Virus record (IMG/VR): IMGVR_UViG_3300017991_001447
Location: 1 to 20,086 of that record
Reading direction: 5' to 3' (one strand)
DNA: 20,086 bases
From: a virus
Shown here: in pieces, positions 1 to 17,510 of the stretch
Position numbering within the stretch: position 1 is the first letter of the stretch
Layout of the letters: every line of letters starts with the position of its first letter
The notes under the pieces: model-generated
What the model saw: only the letters and a program-made list of their open reading frames with translations
Databases searched by the model: none
What the model was told of the DNA's origin: nothing
Position numbers and translations under genes: made by a program

Positions 1-1289
1 CCATCTTTATGTTGCTTTAGCTTAGTCTCACGGCCACGCATGGGCGCACCTACATTGAGGTTTGCTCCAAGCAATCTAGCCGCGTTTTCAGCTACCTCTG
101 CTTCACGAAAAACAAACGCGCCTGATTGTTCTTCGATGCCGCCGTAAGCTCGTGCAGCTGTAGAAAGATCAGGGTCTTTATTAAGGAACGTGCGCGTCCA
201 GCCCGCGCCGTCCTGCTGCCATGATTCATGCTCCTGTACACCAGGAGTATAGCGTCTTACAGACCAGGCTCCACCGCGAATTGGGTAGGCAAAGCAGTTT
301 TGCTCATTTAGATTCGTTCCCTGAGTGTTTGATTTGAAAAATCCCTTTAGTCCCATTTCTTCATGGGCCTTTTGGAGCCAGTAGGTATGTGTCACAAGCA
401 TATGATGGTCTTGATCCCACCACCAAACTGCGTTCTCTTGCTCCTTCAGAAAGTCTATTACTTTCTTATGCCCCTCATCCAAAGGAACACGCGGACGCTG
501 GCTCGTGAGTTCCTCGAATAAATCTCCTGACCCACTTTCTTCAATTACCTGTGGGAGAACTTTCCGTCTTCGTCCAGATACAACCTTAATATGATCTTTC
601 CAGTTGGGTGGTACCTCTGACAATATTCCTCCGGACTTAAGGAGTGCAAGACCACGTAGATCTGATCCCCCATTTGCCATTTTTCGATGCCAGATCCACA
701 TATTGCCACCGCAAATATCCACACTGGAGCTAAAATCGTACCCTGTGTATGCGGACATCTTGCCAAGTATTGCTCTAGCAAGAGCTGCATGTTCGTTATG
801 ATTTTTTGTTTCAACTGGCTCGACAAAGACATATATGTGGATACCTTTTCCAGACGTTGAGCGTCGGATTGTAGCCCATTCAATGTCTTGTGCAGCTCGT
901 CTAATGCTTTTAAGTTGCTCATTAGTTAGTCCGTCCTTATGTGATACTATGCTATCAAAGTCAAAAGCCACCCAACGACTAACGCGATTTTCCCAATCCC
1001 ATCCAGTCATTCCGATGGCTTCAACGTGTTGTTCAAGAGGCCAAGTTATTGGCTTATCAGTATATTCCGGTTCTGTATTTGCTTTATATGGAATCCTAAA
1101 AGACTTCCAAGTGATTGTGCCATCTGTCCATCCCTGCCACCGACGACCATGAAAGTCTCCATCAACACGTTCACCGCCATCCTGTGCTACATTGACTTGA
1201 CATTCCATAGAATGATTATACAAATCCGCCAAGTCTTTGTGGGTAGACGACTGTAGAAAGAGTCGAATCGCTTCTGTACGAGTAGGCAC
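1..1289 (-). CDS. Archaeo-eukaryotic-type primase (AEP), N-terminal part, 3' end outside window
   Basis: The minus strand is open from a GTG start at 1289 to the window edge (429 codons, no stop). An AGGGAG ribosome site (complement of 1297-1302) lies 7 bases upstream of the GTG. The protein carries the three AEP catalytic motifs in order: hhhDhD as WVAFDFDS (D110, D112), the SxH motif as STSGKGIHIYVF (H151), and hhD as SVDICGG (D191). Family knowledge: AEP primases and prim-pols synthesise primers, and phage versions are often fused to a helicase; such a C-terminal domain would lie outside the window. The rest of the visible protein, from about residue 215, is not recognised. It is the only minus-strand gene seen and is divergent from the ParB-like gene at 1820. 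AEP domain assignment is quite sure; whether it is replicative or part of a TOTE-like system is not. Confidence 0.85.
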   Translation of the reverse strand, partial: MPTRTEAIRLFLQSSTHKDLADLYNHSMECQVNVAQDGGERVDGDFHGRRWQGWTDGTITWKSFRIPYKANTEPEYTDKPITWPLEQHVEAIGMTGWDWENRVSRWVAFDFDSIVSHKDGLTNEQLKSIRRAAQDIEWATIRRSTSGKGIHIYVFVEPVETKNHNEHAALARAILGKMSAYTGYDFSSSVDICGGNMWIWHRKMANGGSDLRGLALLKSGGILSEVPPNWKDHIKVVSGRRRKVLPQVIEESGSGDLFEELTSQRPRVPLDEGHKKVIDFLKEQENAVWWWDQDHHMLVTHTYWLQKAHEEMGLKGFFKSNTQGTNLNEQNCFAYPIRGGAWSVRRYTPGVQEHESWQQDGAGWTRTFLNKDPDLSTAARAYGGIEEQSGAFVFREAEVAENAARLLGANLNVGAPMRGRETKLKQHKD

Positions 1290-1314
1290 GCAGTATCTCC
1301 CTGATTTTCTGAAT

Positions 1315-1399
1315 CAATGATTGCAGGAATCATTGGATAGACACCGTACAGGTGTATGATTTGATTTGTGATAACAGGACGTTATCCAAATCAAATCAT
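1315..1399. repeat. Cluster of three consecutive hairpins upstream of the primase gene
   Basis: Three inverted repeats follow each other almost without gaps. CAATGATT at 1315-1322 pairs perfectly with 1328-1335 around a 5-base loop. ACACC at 1341-1345 pairs with GGTGT at 1351-1355. The arm at 1356-1375 pairs with 1381-1399 around a 5-base loop, perfect except for one bulged T. The outer 13 bases of that third hairpin are ATGATTTGATTTG and its complement, so the iteron-like motif is here arranged head to head. Possible roles are an operator pair, a leader-RNA structure for the primase transcript, or single-strand initiation or recombination structures; the sequence alone does not decide. Confidence 0.75.
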
Positions 1400-1476
1400 G
1401 GAGTGCAATAGCAGAACAGACATAAAGCCTGTCCGTGTACTTTACGGTATAGACTGGAAAAAGGTAAGAAAAAAGT

Positions 1477-1503
1477 GTAACTCGTTACGGGAGAATGACT
1501 TAC
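1477..1503 (+). promoter_or_regulatory. 29-base element, copy 1 (diverged)
   Basis: It reads GTAACTCGTTACGG, then GAG, then AATGACTTAC. It matches copy 2 (1605-1633) and copy 3 (14929-14957, opposite strand) in the half sites AACTCGTT and AATGACTT, but differs in the three bases after the central CGG. The two halves form an imperfect dyad (AACTCGTT against AAGTCATT when inverted), as expected for an operator bound by a dimer. The last bases overlap the 25-base arm of the large inverted repeat. Confidence 0.6.
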
Positions 1504-1604
1504 AACAATTCTGACTAACTGCCCTATTATCCGCAGAATATATTTACCTTTTTCCTTTTTCCTTTATATATAGCGACTGGATGGGCAGTTAGTCAGAATT
1601 GTTG

Positions 1605-1633
1605 TAACTCGTTGCGGTTCAATGACTTATGAC
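1605..1633 (+). promoter_or_regulatory. 29-base element, copy 2
   Basis: The element begins TAACTCGTTGCGGTTCAA and ends GACTTATGAC. It is identical at 27 of 29 positions to the complement of 14929-14957, more than 13 kb away, where only two C/T differences occur. Imperfect dyad half sites AACTCGTT and AATGACTT are separated by GCGGTTC. Conservation of a non-coding 29-mer in two separate intergenic regions indicates a bound site. The protein is unknown; the ParB-like product of the gene at 1820 is one candidate. Confidence 0.7.
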
Positions 1634-1819
1634 TTTTTCTTACCTTTTTCCATTTGAGAACGTAAAGCATATGGCAGCAACGTGGCCAGTTTGCACATTC
1701 GGCCCGTTGTTCAAATCAAATCATTCCCTGAGTGAGTGCTCGGTGAGTATGGATTTGATTTGCATAATCAATCGTGTTTGATTTTGCCAATCAGACACAC
1801 AAAGTAGGGAGTCCCAATC

Positions 1820-2815
1820 ATGGGGAAACTCGCAACTGTTCCGATCACGCTCGTTCGCGAGAACGAGGTAGCATTGAGGACGGTCAATCGTGAGAGCGAA
1901 AAGTATCTCGGATTGATCGAATCAATGAAGCAGAAGGGTTTTCTTGGTGCGATTACCGTTCGCAGCCAGGAGGATCCTGAAACCCATCAGGAGTATTACG
2001 AGCTCGTTGATGGGTTGCATCGCTTCAGCGCGGCGAAGGACGCCGGGCTGGTTGAAATCAATGTGGACATCGTTGATCTTGATGACGATCAGGTGCTCGA
2101 AGCGCAGCTGATGGCCAACTTCCACAAGATCGAGACTCGTCCCGTTGAGTATTCGAAGCAGCTTGTTCGTATTCTGAATCGGCACCCGCTGATGACGGAA
2201 TCGGAACTGGCTGAGAATCTTGGTGTGTCGTCTGCTTTCATTCAGCAGCGTTTGAATCTCACTAAGATTCCTGACGAGGGTGTTCAGAAGCTCATCGACG
2301 CGGGAGAGATTTCGCTGTCGAATGCTTACGCACTCGCCAAGCTGCCGCCTGAAGAGCAGGCGGAGTTCGTTCAGAATGCTGTGGCGATGCCGCCCGACGA
2401 GTTTGTTCCGCAGGTATCGCAGCGCGTGAAGGAACTTCGTGAGGCAAAGCGTCAGGGTCGTGACGCTGCGTCGATTGAGTTCACGCCTCAGCCGCACATC
2501 CGTAAGATTGCGGAGATGAAGGAAGCCATCAACAACTCCGAGCTTCATTCGTTTCTTGCGAAGGATGTTGAAACCAAGGAGCAGGCCATTCGTCGTGGAA
2601 TCGAATTCTGCCTGAATCTTGATCCTCGTTCGATCGAGGCGCAGAAGGCCAAGCACGACGAGCGGATTCAGAAGAAGGAAGCCATGCTGAAGAAGCGCGC
2701 TGAAGAGCGTGCGAAGAAGGCCGAAGAGAAGGCGGCAAAGGCTGCCGCAGCTGCAGCGGAAGCTAAGGCTGCATTGTCCGGTGAAAGTCAGCCGGATGAC
2801 ACGCAGGAAGGTTGA
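1820..2815 (+). CDS. ParB-like nuclease-fold/HTH DNA-binding protein
   Basis: This 331-residue protein has a ParB N-terminal domain. The strand and helix before residue 50 lead to the GxHRxxA box as VDGLHRFSAAKDAG (G65, H67, R68). The second box is MANFHKIETRPVEYSKQL (99-115), in place of the usual ENxQR. A helix-turn-helix follows at about 125-148 (MTESELAENLGVSSAFIQQR). From about residue 275 the chain is a Lys/Glu/Ala-rich, probably coiled-coil tail. ParB-family proteins use this fold for CTP-dependent DNA sliding, transcription control or nuclease activity; no ParA is present here. The start ATG follows a TAGGGAG ribosome site. By eye it is clearly richer in GC and in preferred-looking codons than most neighbours, which may mean high expression. 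A strong hairpin follows the stop. Confidence 0.88.
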   Translation: MGKLATVPITLVRENEVALRTVNRESEKYLGLIESMKQKGFLGAITVRSQEDPETHQEYYELVDGLHRFSAAKDAGLVEINVDIVDLDDDQVLEAQLMANFHKIETRPVEYSKQLVRILNRHPLMTESELAENLGVSSAFIQQRLNLTKIPDEGVQKLIDAGEISLSNAYALAKLPPEEQAEFVQNAVAMPPDEFVPQVSQRVKELREAKRQGRDAASIEFTPQPHIRKIAEMKEAINNSELHSFLAKDVETKEQAIRRGIEFCLNLDPRSIEAQKAKHDERIQKKEAMLKKRAEERAKKAEEKAAKAAAAAAEAKAALSGESQPDDTQEG

Positions 2816-4547: not shown

Positions 4548-4630
4548 GCTCGGGTGGTGGAATAGGCAGACACAATAGACTTAAAATCTATCGGCTAGTT
4601 ACCATGCGGGTTCGAGTCCCGCCCCGAGCA
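4548..4630 (+). tRNA. tRNA-Leu (anticodon UAA)
   Basis: Acceptor arms GCTCGGG (4548-4554) and CCCGAGC (4623-4629) pair perfectly, with discriminator A4630. The D arm region resembles the usual bacterial Leu form (GGTGGAATAGGCAGACAC). The anticodon stem ATAGA (4575-4579)/TCTAT (4587-4591) encloses loop CTTAAAA, giving anticodon TAA at 4582-4584. A 15-base variable region (4592-4606) marks a class II tRNA. The T arm GCGGG-TTCGAGT-CCCGC is canonical. The 3' CCA is not encoded. Phages often carry such tRNAs to read codons rare in the host; tRNA-Leu genes can also be attachment sites, but no integrase is seen nearby. Confidence 0.93.
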
Positions 4631-5392: not shown

Positions 5393-7422
5393 TAGAAACA
5401 AAATTTATTGCAGGTAAATATAAGATCAAGGTTAAGCTATTCTATAAGAATGGTCGCATATTTATCAAGTTTCCATTCAATAAAAAATTGATTGATGAAA
5501 TCCGTGTCATGGAAGGTGCAAAGTGGCATGGATTCGACAAACCTAATCCTGTGAAGATGTGGAGCGTAGCCGACACACCGGGAAATGATTTTCGTATTCG
5601 TTATCTCAAGGGTGAGAATCCTTATGCAGCATTCAAGACACCACTAATCGAGATTCCTGAATCCTCATGGGGTCGACCGCTATATGATCATCAGAAAGAG
5701 ATGGTACGTCATGGCCTTACTCGTGGATACTGTGTGTTCGCGTGTGAGATGGGCACAGGAAAATCACTCGCAGCCATTGAAATAATGGAGCGTGCAGGTG
5801 TGCATGATGAACATGATGCATGGTACGTGGGTCCGGTTGCCGGCGTCAAGGCTGTGGGTCGTGAGTTAGTCAAGTGGCAATCATTTGTTAAGCCACGAAT
5901 GATGACCTATGATAGATTGGTAAGAATTGTGGAGGATTGGGATGATGGATTCCCGGCACCAAGATGCATTATCTTCGACGAGAGTTCCAAGATCAAGAAT
6001 CCAAATGCTAAAAGGTCTCAAGCTGCTCGGCATATTGCAGAAGCGATACGAGAAGAGTATGGCGAAGAAGGTTATGTCATCGAAATGTCAGGAACGCCGG
6101 CACCAAAGTCACCTGTAGATTGGTTCAATCAACTTGAGACAGCAGTTCCTGGTTACCTAAGAGAAGGTGACATTCATAAATTTAAGTCACGGTTGTGTAT
6201 CATTGAAACTCGTGAATCAGGAATCACTGGTACCACTTATCCGCATATTGTTACATGGCTTGACGATGAGAAAAAGTGTGCAACGTGTGGTGAGTATAGA
6301 GATTCAGATAATCATAAGCAGTTTCTCGATCCTGTTGGATTACCTATAGTCGAGCAAAAATCTACCGGACTAAAGATGCTAGAGGATGTTCCTGTCAATA
6401 CGGAATCTTTTGAACCAAATCCGAACTACCATCCATATAAGCCGTCAGTCAATGAAGTAGAAAAATTGTATCGTAGAATGGATGGTGTTGTTCTTGTACA
6501 ATTTAAGAAGGATTGCTTAGACTTACCGGATAAGAGATATAAAATCATTACAGTCAAACCAACGCCGTCAATGGTCCGTGCTGCAAAGATTATTCGTACT
6601 AAGGCGACACGAGCAGTTATGGCCCTCAACCTTCTTCGAGAACTCTCAGATGGTTTTCAATACACTGACAGGGAAGTGGGTGTCCAGAAATGTCCGAACT
6701 GTCAGGGTAATGGAAGTGTTACAGCTATGGTTCCTAAGGACGAAGTTGATACACAGAAGCCTAATGCGGACATTGATGCAGAACAATTTGAAGAACAAAC
6801 AATAGTCTGTGATTACTGTAAGGGTTCTAAGGTTGTTCCCCGTTATGAAAGAGTAACAGACTCAGGTGAGACACCTAAGGATCAAGTATTCATAGACATG
6901 CTCGATGAACATGAAGAAGGCGGCCGGTTCATTGTGTGGGGTGGATTTACTGGATCAATTGATCGACTGGTTGCTATCGCACATAAATACGGATGGGCTA
7001 CTCTGCGTGTCGATGGTCGTGGATACTTTGCTCAAGAAGCAACAGGTGAGGTTGCTAACGATAATGACTTTCTTGACGCTATGGATTTATCGCATCCACG
7101 TTACAGAGAATTGTTGTCTAAGCATCCAAGGATATGTTTTGTTGGCCATCCACAAGCAGGTGGTATGGCATTAACATTAACGGCATCACCGTCAGCATTA
7201 TTTTATAGTAACTGTTACAACGGTGAGGCAAGAATGCAGGCAGAAGATAGATTCCATCGTGCGGGTATGGATAAAAATAAAGGAGCAACAGTCTATGATT
7301 TGTTCTGTCTTCCGACAGATAAGTTGATCTATGAGAATCTGCAGCAGAAGAAGAAGCTTCAGAAAATCAGTATGGGTGAGTTGAATGACGCGTTCACAGA
7401 AATAGAGAAGGAGAAGACATGA
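5386..7422 (+). CDS. SNF2-like superfamily 2 DNA helicase/translocase with DnaJ-like zinc insert
   Basis: This 678-residue protein (TTG start) has the SF2 motifs. Walker A is EMGTGKS (K126). Motif II is CIIFDESSKIKN (D198, E199), where DESS rather than DEAD/DEAH fits the SNF2 type. Motif III is SGTPAP at 235-240. Motif VI is QAEDRFHRAGM (618-628, R622 and R625). Between the two RecA lobes lie a CxxC knuckle (C298, C301) and a pair CPNCQGNG (C436, C439) and CDYCKGSKV (C475, C478). That pair resembles the CxxCxGxG zinc modules of DnaJ. Likely role: ATP-driven unwinding or remodelling during phage replication or recombination. The stop overlaps the following ParB-domain gene by 4 bases (ATGA), and the polymerase follows two genes later. 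An alternative start is TTG 5356. Confidence 0.9.
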   Translation: MLVETKFIAGKYKIKVKLFYKNGRIFIKFPFNKKLIDEIRVMEGAKWHGFDKPNPVKMWSVADTPGNDFRIRYLKGENPYAAFKTPLIEIPESSWGRPLYDHQKEMVRHGLTRGYCVFACEMGTGKSLAAIEIMERAGVHDEHDAWYVGPVAGVKAVGRELVKWQSFVKPRMMTYDRLVRIVEDWDDGFPAPRCIIFDESSKIKNPNAKRSQAARHIAEAIREEYGEEGYVIEMSGTPAPKSPVDWFNQLETAVPGYLREGDIHKFKSRLCIIETRESGITGTTYPHIVTWLDDEKKCATCGEYRDSDNHKQFLDPVGLPIVEQKSTGLKMLEDVPVNTESFEPNPNYHPYKPSVNEVEKLYRRMDGVVLVQFKKDCLDLPDKRYKIITVKPTPSMVRAAKIIRTKATRAVMALNLLRELSDGFQYTDREVGVQKCPNCQGNGSVTAMVPKDEVDTQKPNADIDAEQFEEQTIVCDYCKGSKVVPRYERVTDSGETPKDQVFIDMLDEHEEGGRFIVWGGFTGSIDRLVAIAHKYGWATLRVDGRGYFAQEATGEVANDNDFLDAMDLSHPRYRELLSKHPRICFVGHPQAGGMALTLTASPSALFYSNCYNGEARMQAEDRFHRAGMDKNKGATVYDLFCLPTDKLIYENLQQKKKLQKISMGELNDAFTEIEKEKT

Positions 7423-8273
7423 AAGAGATTATTTCCGTAAGAATTGATGAGATGCATATGGATGACAATTTCAATTGTCGTGGACATATTACGCCTATGG
7501 ACGTTGCTGATCTCGCAAAGGACATTGAGCAACGTGGACTCGTTCAGCCTGTAACTGTACAAAAGTATAATGAGGAACAGCGACAGAACACAGGATTCAA
7601 GTATCGGTTACTTGCTGGTTATCGCCGAACAATGGCTCATAGGATTCTTGGACGAGAGGAGATTGAAGCAATCATCCATGAGCCAATGTCAGAAACAGAC
7701 GCTATGTTTCTGAATCTTGCTGAGAATGTTAATCGTTCTGAATTAACAATCATGCAAGAGGCCCGTGCGCTGCACAAACTTCATGCTATGGGTATCGGTG
7801 AAATTGTCGCTGCCGCAGAGCTAAATAAGTCTCGCGGTTGGATACAAGTTCGATACATGCTCCTGAAGCTTCCTCCCGATGTTCAGGCTGCCGTTGAAGC
7901 TGGATTTATTAATCAGACACAGATTCGTGAGCTATATACCGTAATGAAAAAGTACGGTGTAGATACATGTCTGTCAGAGGCTCGCGACATTAAAGACAAG
8001 AAACGCCGCGGTGTTAAGGGTGCTAAGGTTAAGAAGGCCAAAAATTACACAGCGAAAAAGGCCCGGCTGAAGCAAGAAATCATTACCATGCTTGAGTATA
8101 TTTATGACATAACGGGATCAGGATTGCATACCCGTTGTCTGGCATGGGCGTGTGGTGAGATTAGCGAACTTGATCTTTACAAGTCACTCAAGATTTTCTG
8201 TGATAAAAACGGAATAATCTACAGTATTCCGAATGTGGCTCTGCGTGAAGAAGAAAACGAATCGAAATACTAA
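7419..8273 (+). CDS. Second ParB-domain DNA-binding protein
   Basis: This 284-residue protein has a canonical ParB/Spo0J N-terminal domain: DLAKDIEQRGLVQPVTV (about 31-47), the GYRR box as RLLAGYRRTMAHRILG (R69, R70), and the NLAENVNRSELTIMQEARAL box (99-118). A helix-turn-helix follows at about 126-148. The middle is strongly basic (KKRRGVKGAKVKKAKN). The C-terminal 75 residues are unrecognised. It is closer to the family consensus than the ParB-like protein at 1820 and clearly distinct from it. It starts at the ATGA overlap with the helicase, which implies joint expression and possibly a shared task such as replication initiation or DNA organisation. No ParA partner is visible. Confidence 0.88.
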   Translation: MKEIISVRIDEMHMDDNFNCRGHITPMDVADLAKDIEQRGLVQPVTVQKYNEEQRQNTGFKYRLLAGYRRTMAHRILGREEIEAIIHEPMSETDAMFLNLAENVNRSELTIMQEARALHKLHAMGIGEIVAAAELNKSRGWIQVRYMLLKLPPDVQAAVEAGFINQTQIRELYTVMKKYGVDTCLSEARDIKDKKRRGVKGAKVKKAKNYTAKKARLKQEIITMLEYIYDITGSGLHTRCLAWACGEISELDLYKSLKIFCDKNGIIYSIPNVALREEENESKY

Positions 8274-13710: not shown

Positions 13711-14337
13711 ATGATTCTTATTACTGGAGCAGCACGCAGTGGAACGAGTCTGATCGCAGGAATCATTGATATCTGCGGTGGTCAAGGTGGCAAGGTTGTT
13801 GGTCCCGGAGTCGGAAACACTAAAGGTTTCTTTGAGAACAAAGAGATACGTAATGGAATAATTAAGCCTTATCTTCGGAGCATTGGTGCTGATCCTAAAG
13901 GCCAAGACCCATTGCCGGATTTTACAAATCTAAAGCCTTTACCAGATTTACGGATCAGAGTAAAACGTATTCTAGGTAACCTGCCTGAAGCTTACTATAA
14001 AGGAGCAAAGATATGTTTGCTCTGGCCTCTTTGGTTTCAGGCGTTTCCTGATGCAACATATATTATAGTTCGCCGACCGGATGAACAGATACTCGATTCA
14101 TGTAATCGTACACATTTTATGAATCGCCGGCGGGACTGGAAAGATTGGCTGGATCATCACAAAGTTTGTTTTGACTATATGCAAAGTATTATGCCAGCGA
14201 GAGTTATTACTGTGTGGAGTAATGAAGTAGTAGATGGTAATCTTGAGGTAATAAGGATTATTGTAAATAATCTCTGGTTAGAGTGGAATGAGTATAAAGT
14301 ACGGTCGTTCATAGATAAAGGAATATATCATCAGTGA
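13711..14337 (+). CDS. Sulfotransferase-like P-loop protein
   Basis: A 208-residue protein with the two PAPS-binding elements of sulfotransferases: an N-terminal 5'-phosphosulfate loop ITGAARSGTSLIAGII (4-19), and a 3'-phosphate motif YIIVRRPDEQILDSCNR (117-133, R121 and S130). The domain between is short, so it is a compact member of the family. Such enzymes move a sulfate group from PAPS to sugars, proteins or small molecules. A phage could use it to modify host or virion surface. It overlaps the cysteine peptidase gene by 4 bases (GTGA), implying coupled expression. Assignment is by motif, and the acceptor is unknown. Confidence 0.8.
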   Translation: MILITGAARSGTSLIAGIIDICGGQGGKVVGPGVGNTKGFFENKEIRNGIIKPYLRSIGADPKGQDPLPDFTNLKPLPDLRIRVKRILGNLPEAYYKGAKICLLWPLWFQAFPDATYIIVRRPDEQILDSCNRTHFMNRRRDWKDWLDHHKVCFDYMQSIMPARVITVWSNEVVDGNLEVIRIIVNNLWLEWNEYKVRSFIDKGIYHQ

Positions 14338-14807: not shown

Positions 14808-14811
14808 AGAC

Positions 14812-15095
14812 TGATTTGATTTTGTAAATGTCTGATACTTGATTTGATTGTCATTACCAATTCTGAGAATTATTTTCGCAAATTCTAAAATATGACACAG
14901 ATTTCCTGTTTCCTGATTTGATTTATTTGTCATAAGTCGTTGAGCCGCAACGAGTTAGGAGTTGGTATGAAACTTGCTATGCTGCCCTGGCACGGTTCCT
15001 GCTGTATATAAGGTGACGCAAGGGATGTATCAAAAATCAAATCATGAAATCAGAATCAATTGATTTGAAATCGACGATCAGTGATATTTGATTTC
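14812..15095. repeat. ATTTGATTT-type repeat array in the control region before the sigma gene
   Basis: TGATTTGAT-type copies occur at 14812-14823 (+), about 14839-14849 (+), 14913-14923 (+), 15034-15044 (-), 15061-15069 (+, TGATTTGAA) and 15084-15094 (+, TATTTGATTTC). The 308-base gap 14808-15115 has no supported gene. It also holds a TATATAAGG box at 15005-15013 and the small dyad AATTC-TGA-GAATT (14859-14871). The last copy continues as TTTGATTTCGCAATCA, almost the sequence found before the ParB-like gene. The shared motif points to common control of the two gene sets. Confidence 0.72.
14929..14957 (-). promoter_or_regulatory. 29-base element, copy 3
   Basis: Read on the minus strand it matches 1605-1633 at 27 of 29 positions. 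The two differences keep or improve the dyad: half sites become AACTCGTT and AACGACTT around GCGGCTC. It sits between repeat copies in the region upstream of the sigma gene. Opposite orientation relative to copies 1 and 2 is consistent with a near-symmetric binding site. Confidence 0.7.
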
Positions 15096-15115
15096 GCAAT
15101 CATTAGGGAGGAAAT

Positions 15116-16000
15116 ATGATTAAGTCATCACGTGACTGGTCAGACGAGAACGTAAAGCAGCTCGCTGATCAATTATTAGAGTGCGGAGACAATGTTCCTG
15201 ATTCATTGTTCGATGACCTCATCGACGCCAATCTTGATCTGGCTAATCAAATAGCCGGACACTTTATCCGCATGTTTCCCAAGAAGCGGAATGACATAAT
15301 CTCGTCCGCGATGCTCGGACTCGTGCGTGGGGTGCATAACGCGCCTCACGTCATGCACGATAATAATATAAGGAAGTACCTGCGCCCGCGTATAGCAGGA
15401 GCCATTCATGATTTCCTTGAGCGTGATTTCCTAATCCGTATTCCACGTAAGCAGTGGAAGAAGATGATGGAAGTCGAGGACGTAGTTGATTTTATGGAGC
15501 GTACATTCCGCCCAGGAGTTACACTTCAACGATTCGGAAGTGGAGTGCTTACCTCTAAGCCGATTATCTTCTCAATGATCGGTCGTGATCCCGAGACTGA
15601 TGAAGAATATCATTCCGAAATTCCAGCACCAAAGAAGTATATCAAACGTGACTTCGACGAGATGCTGATCGAAATGCATCTAACTGAACGTGAGTCAATG
15701 ATTGTATGGTTGAGATTATCTGGTTACACGTTCGCTGAGATTGCGGAACGTATGAAACTTACGAAGCCACGAATCATTCAGATAATTGAAGGTCTACGTT
15801 CACGTTGGGTTGAACTTGGATTTCCAATGCCGCGTATTCATCATCGTAAGATATCCGGCACCAAGGTTTGCACACGATGCGAGACTGAGAAAAGTCTGTC
15901 TGAGTTTTACAAGATCGGTGAGGATAAATTCAAATCGATCTGTAAGAAGTGCATGAAGGAGCAACGTTTGGAAAAGGAAAAAGACAATGCATGCAGGTAA
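15116..16000 (+). CDS. Sigma-70-family-like factor with C-terminal zinc-binding tail
   Basis: A 294-residue protein. Residues about 36-110 look like sigma region 2 (DANLDLANQIAGHFIRMFPK, AMLGLVRGVHNA, YLRPRIAGAIHDFLERD). Residues about 189-230 form a region 4 helix-turn-helix (LTERESMIVWLRLSGYTFAE, then IAERMKLTKPRIIQII). Region 3 is shortened or diverged. The last 45 residues add CTRC (252-255) and CKKC (276-279) around a KSLSEFYK segment. This is the pattern seen in HNH-type proteins, but no HNH catalytic His is apparent, so it is probably only a zinc module. Likely role: redirecting host RNA polymerase to phage promoters. The start is supported by AGGGAGG 4 bases upstream. It heads the gene series to the window end and overlaps PolX by 14 bases. 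Confidence 0.85.
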   Translation: MIKSSRDWSDENVKQLADQLLECGDNVPDSLFDDLIDANLDLANQIAGHFIRMFPKKRNDIISSAMLGLVRGVHNAPHVMHDNNIRKYLRPRIAGAIHDFLERDFLIRIPRKQWKKMMEVEDVVDFMERTFRPGVTLQRFGSGVLTSKPIIFSMIGRDPETDEEYHSEIPAPKKYIKRDFDEMLIEMHLTERESMIVWLRLSGYTFAEIAERMKLTKPRIIQIIEGLRSRWVELGFPMPRIHHRKISGTKVCTRCETEKSLSEFYKIGEDKFKSICKKCMKEQRLEKEKDNACR

Positions 16001-16559
16001 TCCGGTACGTCGAGAGCATGTTGAATACTTTGTTGATGGTTTTGTTACGGGTGTAATAGCTGCACGGAATGTTGAGTTAATTCAGTACACAATTACTGGA
16101 TCATTTCGTCGTGGTGCAACAATCTGTGGAGACATTGAGCTTATCCTGCAGGTTAATGACGATGATTATGGTAATCTTCGTCATGCAATCGGTGAACAAT
16201 TCGGATGGGCAAGCTCCGGTAATCCACGCATGTCGGGCGTACGTGGTGAAGTGCAGTTTGATTTATTCATCGCTGATAAGTGTACGCTAGGAGCCATGCT
16301 ACTCCATACCACGGGCAGCTGGAAATTCAATAAAATGCTCCGAACGGAGGCTGCTGCCCGTGGTATGTTACTCAATCAGTATGGTTTGTTTCGTCGGGAT
16401 AATGGTTCTTCATCAAAGACTATGAGTGAAGTTATGCATCAATACGGAAAGAGAGGTCTTATCGAAGGAAAGCCGATAGTTTGTGGTCCGAATGAAAGTG
16501 ATATTCTAACGTATCTCGGATTTGAGAAGTATTCTGATCCGACGAGTAGGAGCCTATGA
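15987..16559 (+). CDS. Minimal family X DNA polymerase / nucleotidyltransferase
   Basis: This 190-residue protein contains the PolX palm and thumb. GSFRRGATICGDIELIL (38-54) carries the GS...D-x-E signature with D49 and E51 (E replaces the usual second Asp). VQFDLFIAD gives the third acid D92. LHTTGSWKFNKMLRTEAAAR continuing GMLLNQYGLF (106-135) is the dNTP-binding thumb block. The C-terminal TYLGFEKYSDPTSR matches the family ending. The 8-kDa lyase domain and fingers are missing, so it is about half the length of Pol beta. Likely role: gap filling in repair, working with the ligase at 18330 and the glycosylase at 17103. The E51 substitution may alter but need not abolish metal binding. A perfect 15-base inverted repeat lies inside the gene. 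Confidence 0.88.
   Translation: MHAGNPVRREHVEYFVDGFVTGVIAARNVELIQYTITGSFRRGATICGDIELILQVNDDDYGNLRHAIGEQFGWASSGNPRMSGVRGEVQFDLFIADKCTLGAMLLHTTGSWKFNKMLRTEAAARGMLLNQYGLFRRDNGSSSKTMSEVMHQYGKRGLIEGKPIVCGPNESDILTYLGFEKYSDPTSRSL
16305..16367 (+). repeat. Perfect 15-base inverted repeat inside the PolX gene
   Basis: CATACCACGGGCAGC (16305-16319) is the exact complement of GCTGCCCGTGGTATG (16353-16367), with 33 bases between. The loop itself holds CTCCG-AA-CGGAG. Arms of 15 bases this close together would be very rare by chance in 20 kb. It lies over the codons of the conserved HTTGSWKFN...RGM block, so both RNA structure and protein sequence are constrained. It may be an RNA control element or the trace of a small duplication or inversion. 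Confidence 0.75.
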
Positions 16560-16930: not shown

Positions 16931-17103
16931 TGCAGACAATCTGGGTAAGTATAACGGAAGAGGATATCCGTACTTTTTCCACTAATCCGCGTGACACCTG
17001 TCTTTCGGCACATATACTGTGTTGTTGGTTGGACAAGAATCCTGATGTCTACGTTCACGATTGTGGAATAATACGGGGCAAACTGTGGATTAAGGGTGTC
17101 TAG
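16930..17103 (+). CDS. Small unknown protein (57 residues)
   Basis: This short frame starts at the TGATG overlap with the preceding gene and ends at the TAGTG overlap with the next. Both junctions are the style used by the real genes around it. The product begins MQTIWVSITEEDIRTFSTNP and contains CLSAHILCCW and VYVHDCGIIRGKLWIKGV. Four Cys are present but not in a convincing CxxC pair arrangement. Function unknown. Confidence 0.7.
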   Translation: MQTIWVSITEEDIRTFSTNPRDTCLSAHILCCWLDKNPDVYVHDCGIIRGKLWIKGV

Positions 17104-17510
17104 TGCAAACATTCCTTCCCTATCCTAACCTAAGGGACTCCGCTGCCTGTCTCGATGACAAGCGTCTCGGAAAACAGCGTGTTGAAGCGATGCAAATTCT
17201 TTCAACGCTCCGAGGACTGTCGGACGGATGGCGGAATCATCCTGCGGTTAGGATGTGGGAAGGTTTCGAGTCGTGCCTGGAACTTTATCTTTTGTTCTGT
17301 GTGTTAGAGTGGGAGGGGAGAGGTTATGTCAACAATATCCGGGTGGATTATTCTATGCGAGCACCTTTTCTATGCGACGTACCTGATTGGCTCGGTGATT
17401 TTAGAATTCATTCTAGTCATCGAGCTGCTTTACTAGCGAAAGAGCCAGAGTGGTATGACTGTATGGGATGGACAGAGGAACCGGAGATTAACTATTGGTG
17501 GCCACGATGA
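17103..17510 (+). CDS. Pyrimidine dimer DNA glycosylase family protein (MSMEG_6728/Pyr_excise-like)
   Basis: A 135-residue product with a GTG start overlapping the previous stop by one base; AAGGG lies 6 bases upstream. The sequence follows the small MSMEG_6728-like group closely: MQTFLPYPNLRDSAACLDDK with RLGKQRVEAMQIL (1-33), GWRNHPAVRMWEGFE (41-55), a linker, then FRIHSSHRAALLAKEPEWY and GWTEEPEINYWWP at the C-terminus. The group is annotated with the Pyr_excise family, whose founding member, T4 endonuclease V, cuts at UV-induced pyrimidine dimers through an N-terminal amine nucleophile. Gene context with PolX and ligase fits base excision repair. Actual activity of this branch is less certain than the family match. 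Confidence 0.85.
   Translation: MQTFLPYPNLRDSAACLDDKRLGKQRVEAMQILSTLRGLSDGWRNHPAVRMWEGFESCLELYLLFCVLEWEGRGYVNNIRVDYSMRAPFLCDVPDWLGDFRIHSSHRAALLAKEPEWYDCMGWTEEPEINYWWPR

Follow-up and report, generated by a model that had tools for sequence, protein, structure and literature searches.

What do the two long non-coding stretches of this uncultured bacterial virus do, and what does it mean that they carry the same repeated elements? The window analyzed is the entire IMG/VR record IMGVR_UViG_3300017991_001447, 20,086 nt. The initial annotation had singled out region 1 (1292-1819, 528 nt) and region 2 (14808-15115, 308 nt) as the only long non-coding stretches, and indeed the third longest gap is 141 nt. 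It had also described a repeat set in both; all 8 exact copies of ATTTGATTT in the window lie inside these regions, which are 13 kb apart, 4 in each and 0 elsewhere, with 0.58 expected and a maximum of 4 in 100 shuffles. The 29-nt element said to be common to both is found at 1605-1633 (plus strand) and 14929-14957 (minus strand), in opposite orientation and identical at 27 of 29 positions, with a cross-region match score of 23 vs a maximum of 13 in 60 shuffles. Its diverged copy is real, at 1476-1502, and the similar ends noted before gene starts are present as well, TTTGATTTTGCCAATCA 26 nt and TTTGATTTCGCAATCA 13 nt before the ATGs. Three things had been overlooked. The 29-nt element is itself a dyad, TAACTCGTT-N7-AAYGACTTA; copies A and B of it lie within a long inverted repeat, 1439-1524 / 1583-1668, with an AT-rich core between the arms; and position 1289 is the start of a leftward primase-helicase gene. 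Region 1 is therefore a divergent intergenic region, placed between this gene and a rightward gene for a ParB-family protein, ParB1 (Table 1). A near-identical contig (L004/L131) differs from the window at 10 positions over 13.4 kb, none of them within the elements. Six of the 10 differences from L131 fall within 36 nt, 1401-1436, between the left operators and the palindrome.

We propose, with a probability of a little under 60%, that region 1 serves both as a stem-loop origin and as the divergent control region for two replication operons, that region 2 controls the sigma operon, and that a single phage regulator, most likely a KorB-like ParB1, has its operators in both.

Table 1. Features of the two regions and neighboring genes in the window
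Feature	Position	Strand	Remark
Primase-helicase gene, 5' part	1-1289	-	cut by the window's left end; 897 aa in near-identical contig L004
Left operator pair, ATGATTTGATTTG and inverted copy	1356-1368, 1387-1399	+, -	
Palindrome, outer left arm	1439-1475	+	
Dyad A, TAACTCGTTACGGGAGAATGACTTA	1478-1502	+	
Inner left arm, CAACAATTCTGACTAACTGCCC	1503-1524	+	
AT-rich core with TATATATAG	1525-1582		palindrome loop; candidate unwinding element
Inner right arm, GGGCAGTTAGTCAGAATTGTTG	1583-1604	+	
Dyad B, TAACTCGTTGCGGTTCAATGACTTA	1605-1629	+	core of the 29-nt element
Palindrome, outer right arm	1630-1668	+	
Right operator pair, CAAATCAAATCAT and GATTTGATTTG	1712-1724, 1752-1762	-, +	
Operator-like site TTTGATTTTGCCAATCA	1777-1793	+	26 nt 5' of ParB1 start
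ParB1 (ParB_N + HTH_ParB)	1820-2815	+	candidate operator-binding regulator
tRNA-Leu (taa) gene	4548-4630		inside replication gene block
ParB2, second ParB-family protein	7419-8273	+	alternative candidate binder
Region 2 operators, TGATTTGATTT and TGATTTGATT	14812-14822, 14840-14849	+	
Region 2 operator TGATTTGATTT	14914-14924	+	8 nt before dyad C
Dyad C, TAACTCGTTGCGGCTCAACGACTTA	14933-14957	-	core of the 29-nt element
Two sigma-54-like -24/-12 matches, 14963 TGGTATGAAACTTGCT and 14988 TGGCACGGTTCCTGCT	14963-15003	+	candidate promoters
Region 2 operator TGATTTGATTT	15034-15044	-	
Last operator before sigma-factor start, ATTTGATTTCGCAATCA	15086-15102	+	13 nt before ATG; end TTTGATTTCGCAATCA at 15087-15102
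Sigma-70 family protein (regions 2 and 4)	15116-16000	+	heads region-2 operon

Using the DNA polymerase as query in IMG/VR, we found 13 further contigs at 40-63% identity, 11 of which are syntenic at the locus. Gene order in nearly all relatives is primase (minus strand), region 1, ParB1 and then helicase, ParB2 and polymerase; in contigs of sufficient reach, these are often followed by sigma-like and ligase genes. Searches of IMG/VR with the sigma and ParB1 proteins returned no relative beyond the near-identical contig, no close relative of any of four proteins (primase-helicase, ParB1, polymerase and sigma) turned up in 50,697 phage records, and a primase homologue sought in plasmids was not found.

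The motif TGATTTGATT is present in 7 of 12 relative records, and the reversed control in 0. Where both regions are present, nearly all copies fall in two clusters about 10-14 kb apart, and relatives at roughly 45-61% polymerase identity have the motif in the same two gene contexts; there are also a few stray 9-mers (e.g., G002:24501). The relatives L138, L140, and L141 carry GATGTGATG in place of TGATTTGATT in both regions, and L137 has an inverted GATGGGATG pair in region 1. Common to these operators is the form (GATNN)2, and their spacing is variable, unlike that of the fixed parS. Since the operator sequence differs jointly at two distant places, a trans-acting factor appears to be coevolving with its sites. 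In region 2 of L135 and L136, operators flank TTGACA-17-TATATT and TTGACA-17-TATAGT promoters, respectively, the placement expected of repressor sites. The proposal of a phage-specific promoter/operator system is thus well supported by the conserved contexts of TGATTTGATT, the absence of the reversed control and the swap to GATGTGATG in both regions; random motif positions and absence from related phages, the outcomes named as speaking against it, were looked for and did not occur. The two-region operator set points to one virus-wide switch, in which the GATTTGATT operators of both regions would be served by one sequence-specific, phage-made regulator, most likely ParB1.

Region 1 also contains an interrupted palindrome of about 230 nt. 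Folded as single-stranded DNA, positions 1438-1669 give -53 kcal/mol (z = -11.5). The palindrome scores 76 in the window and 82, 93, 81, and 45 in L132, L143, L136, and L135, with shuffle maxima of at most 32, and in four records (the window, G001, G005, and G007) no ungapped inverted repeat outranks it; in G002, G008, and G009 others do. Its arms differ between phages yet remain complementary, with 13 compensatory pairs in L132 vs L143. A long stem-loop beside the primase gene is clear in 5 of 12 phages and shorter or absent in the rest, so that structure is kept without sequence; a TATATAG-like core is found again in relatives. A search for a long palindrome in L133, L137, and L141 gave none, and the top score in L139 was an operator pair. 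Perfect DnaA boxes (TTATCCACA) occur in region 1 of L137 (2), L138, and L140, 2-3 in each, and this sequence is confined to region 1 in G007 (3 of 3 copies in 48 kb) and G009 (3 of 3 in 38 kb). The perfect box is absent from the examined loci of the window and the other GATTTGATT relatives, and G008 has one, elsewhere. GC skew was rejected as proof of an origin: it reverses only across the leftward primase gene, with no genome-wide minimum at region 1, and since the reversal tracks that gene, it is not independent origin evidence. The elements, their confinement to two places, their conserved position, the joint operator differences between phages and the compensatory changes are observations; origin activity, hairpin extrusion and the identity of both binders are what we infer. 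The stem-loop in region 1 is probably the phage replication start site.

It may also be that region 1 is a divergent promoter/operator region only, that the palindrome acts in RNA as a leader or terminator hairpin, and that replication starts elsewhere. We consider this unlikely, although several observations fit it: operators are found close to both divergent gene starts and ahead of the sigma gene, and the region 2 promoters of L135 and L136 are flanked by operators. In addition, mismatches in the arms favor wobble pairing on the plus strand, 15 vs 4, which makes an RNA role for the palindrome possible. However, DnaA boxes are concentrated in region 1 of three relatives, a long palindrome interrupted by an AT-rich loop would be an odd shape for a leader, and region 2 has no palindrome.

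The product of the adjoining gene bears on the choice. All 11 members of the primase-helicase family have the DUF5906 helicase domain (E 2.3e-15), which we take to be SF3/D5-like, with weak Pox_D5 support in one member. The PDB entry 6k9c, "Primase," matches profile positions 609-806 (E 5e-5), and an AEP-TOTE match is weak and below the cut-off (E 0.0055). The structure model of the primase has a mean pLDDT of 56, and its middle part is unreliable. In this low-confidence model, the fold of the N-terminal part matches RepB', Prim-PolC, and the LigD polymerase, which are AEP-like, at Z 5-6, and residues 801-875 form a predicted winged helix, scoring Z 9.5 against RFX5 and about 7.6 against the C terminus of AsfvPrimPol. 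The replication proteins of pRN1 (ORF904) and Bordetella phage BIP-1/BPP-1 consist of an AEP-like primase, a helicase and a C-terminal winged helix, which the window protein resembles, tentatively so in its primase part, and they too have an adjoining long stem-loop kept in structure rather than sequence (PMC4234260). pRN1 requires an intact stem-loop of about 100 nt, and the same was proposed for BIP-1 (PMC4234260). This architecture, probably common to all three, supports reading the stem-loop as an origin. The systems differ in that the stem-loop of pRN1 and BIP-1 lies downstream of the replication gene, whereas that of the window lies upstream, between divergent operons, and is flanked by operators also found before the sigma operon. 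Unlike in pRN1 and BIP-1, the helicase family in the window is DUF5906, and some relatives of the window have DnaA boxes.

If the stem-loop is an origin, the interrupted palindrome would extrude as a hairpin with the AT-rich core as its loop; the primase-helicase would assemble there, open the core and prime. ParB1 would repress the primase, ParB1 and sigma operons and in this way link genome copying with the switch to the next gene set. The 25- to 27-nt dyads, which lie in the palindrome and ahead of the sigma operon, would be another element common to both regions, and the winged helix of the primase may bind them.

Alternatively, this winged helix could recognize the dyads themselves as the true origin sites, with region 2 as a further cis-acting replication region, a layout comparable to ori and crr of phage P4. 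As in P4, there are two separate regions with a common site, beside a P4-family-like primase gene: the C terminus of the primase-helicase has a P4-family match (TIGR01613, below the cut-off), and the winged helix is RFX-like. Dyads occur in both regions of the window and of L132, which has the variant TAAGTCACGTAATTACGTGACTTA in each, and TGTAAATTGTG is common to both regions of L136. We find this reading doubtful, since most relatives are without a recognizable dyad in region 2, and region 2 is without a palindrome; the 27-nt dyad of L133, L138, and L140 is kept in region 1. In contrast to the P4 arrangement, region 2 of the window precedes a sigma operon, and the primase domain of P4 is of bacterial type, in a system that has iterons (PMC4234260).

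The initial annotation had considered a multi-site origin, and half of this idea stands. Region 1 is origin-like by virtue of its conserved stem-loop, adjoining primase-helicase and the DnaA boxes of three relatives; region 2 looks like the control region of the sigma-factor operon. Of the four best sigma-54-like -24/-12 matches in 250 kb, three belong to region 2 (in the window, at L132:15568 and at L136:18571 on the minus strand), and the one at L132:15568, TGGCACGGGTTTTGCT, is perfect. A search of seven records gave no sigma-54 activator above threshold, and the promoters of L135 and L136 are of sigma-70 type, so sigma-54 regulation is only a lead. The C-terminal extension of the sigma-family protein (about residues 244-291) matches phage HNH/endonuclease VII-type modules. 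Other genes in this part of the window encode a DNA polymerase beta-like nucleotidyltransferase with palm and thumb (15987-16559), a pyrimidine dimer DNA glycosylase (17103-17510) and a protein with a weak sulfotransferase-family match (13711-14337), unusual for a phage replication block.

Which protein binds the operators? The ParB-like proteins and the sigma factor had been put forward. Cosegregation and the ParB fold favor ParB1, and we have no evidence for the sigma factor as a binder. ParB1 has ParB_N and HTH domains and matches Spo0J, Noc, and KorB, with the KorB structures 8qa9 and 8qa8 among its structural matches. When seven alignable proteins are compared, residues that cosegregate with operator type are densest at ParB1 143-154, at the end of the recognition helix (138-149) and directly beyond it. 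Residue 143 lines up with N178 of the Caulobacter protein, which makes a conserved contact to parS (PMC7383237), and residues 144 and 149 align with positions 179 and 184. The GATGTGATG group on the tree consists of one clade and one long branch, and the cosegregation is for this reason weak, suggestive only. Most likely, ParB1 represses the primase, ParB1 and sigma operons in the manner of KorB. KorB of plasmid RK2 is a ParB-family repressor that works at many operators. The two proteins share the ParB-family fold, and the sites in the window are likewise found near replication-gene promoters and at a distant operon; the window operator differs in being (GATNN)2-like with variable spacing.

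A partition system, in which ParB proteins load on the operator clusters as parS-like centromeres, had also been suggested and is not supported. There are two ParB-family proteins, and repeated sites adjoin one of them, but ParA (PF13614) was found in 0 of 7 records, two of them about 64 kb long, with 14 of 14 controls detected; half-site spacing ranges from 0 to tens of nucleotides, and copies sit near gene starts. We regard partition as very improbable. That the dyads serve a tyrosine recombinase as core sites for inverting the 13-kb replication block is hardly credible: their arms of 9-10 bp around 7 bp and their opposite orientation in the two regions would suit it, but the 7-bp spacers, expected to be identical, differ between the sites (ACGGGAG, GCGGTTC, and GCGGCTC), a tyrosine recombinase (PF00589) was found in 0 of 7 records, and gene order and orientation are constant in relatives.

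The dyad reaches beyond this group of phages. In IMG/VR, TAACTCGTTN7AAYGACTTA, the outer 9+9 bases of the dyad, matched at least 119 loci, many of them multi-copy, and the reversed pattern gave 27 single hits. In the loci retrieved, its usual form is TAASTCRTTGANNNTCAAYGASTTA. The 361 dyads there have a fixed spacing and often come in pairs at 50 nt, with TTGACA peaks 36-39 and 87-89 nt upstream; almost all dyads lie outside long ORFs (277 of 296). The contigs L006-L124 (e.g., L021, L076, and L084) are from tailed phages and carry up to 8 intergenic dyads of 25-27 nt at TTGACA promoters, often paired at a distance of 50 nt and with a GC-rich spacer. Many dyad-rich contigs have PhoH, a sigma region 2 protein and a T4-type terminase domain; despite these, we rejected outright assignment to the T4 superfamily, as the presumed portal protein was without a match. 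Homologues of the window proteins were not found in the dyad-rich contigs at E 1e-4. In one of the contigs (L060:577-3648, minus strand), the terminase large subunit is split by an intein with a LAGLIDADG domain. Host chromosomes were rejected as the source of the dyad, with 5 single scattered matches in 257 Gb vs about 2 by chance (a rough estimate). A seemingly fixed C.C mismatch proved to be an artifact of the search pattern; other sites show both forms.

A literature search for the dyad sequence returned only Stenotrophomonas phage DLP6 as relevant. This T4-like phage, from a group with PeSLs and PHIRE "phage promoters," has tandem pairs of ATCAACGACTTA, the half-site of the window dyad; in the dyad-rich contigs the dyad is just 3' of TTGACA. 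Unlike these, the dyads of the window flank an origin-like core. Judging by the sequences, the dyads of the window and of the dyad-rich group likely reflect common descent or a common binder. More tentatively, TAASTCRTT-N7-AAYGASTTA may be a widespread, largely undescribed phage control element, recognized by one kind of factor (possibly the host's) in unrelated phage groups; it would occur as promoter-proximal, 50-nt-spaced pairs in one and, here, within a stem-loop origin and before a sigma operon.

Stem-loop origins and ParB-family operators are known kinds of element; their combination, tied to a sigma operon, is probably new. The locus offers a compact candidate origin for a phage group with relatives in viral metagenomes, and the GATTTGATT and GATGTGATG phages form a natural series for finding the DNA-binding partner. 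If ParB1 is the regulator, a ParB-family protein would serve as a global regulator without partition. The shared dyad links two unrelated phage groups and, if our reading of it is true, would link replication to a transcription switch in the phage group of the window.
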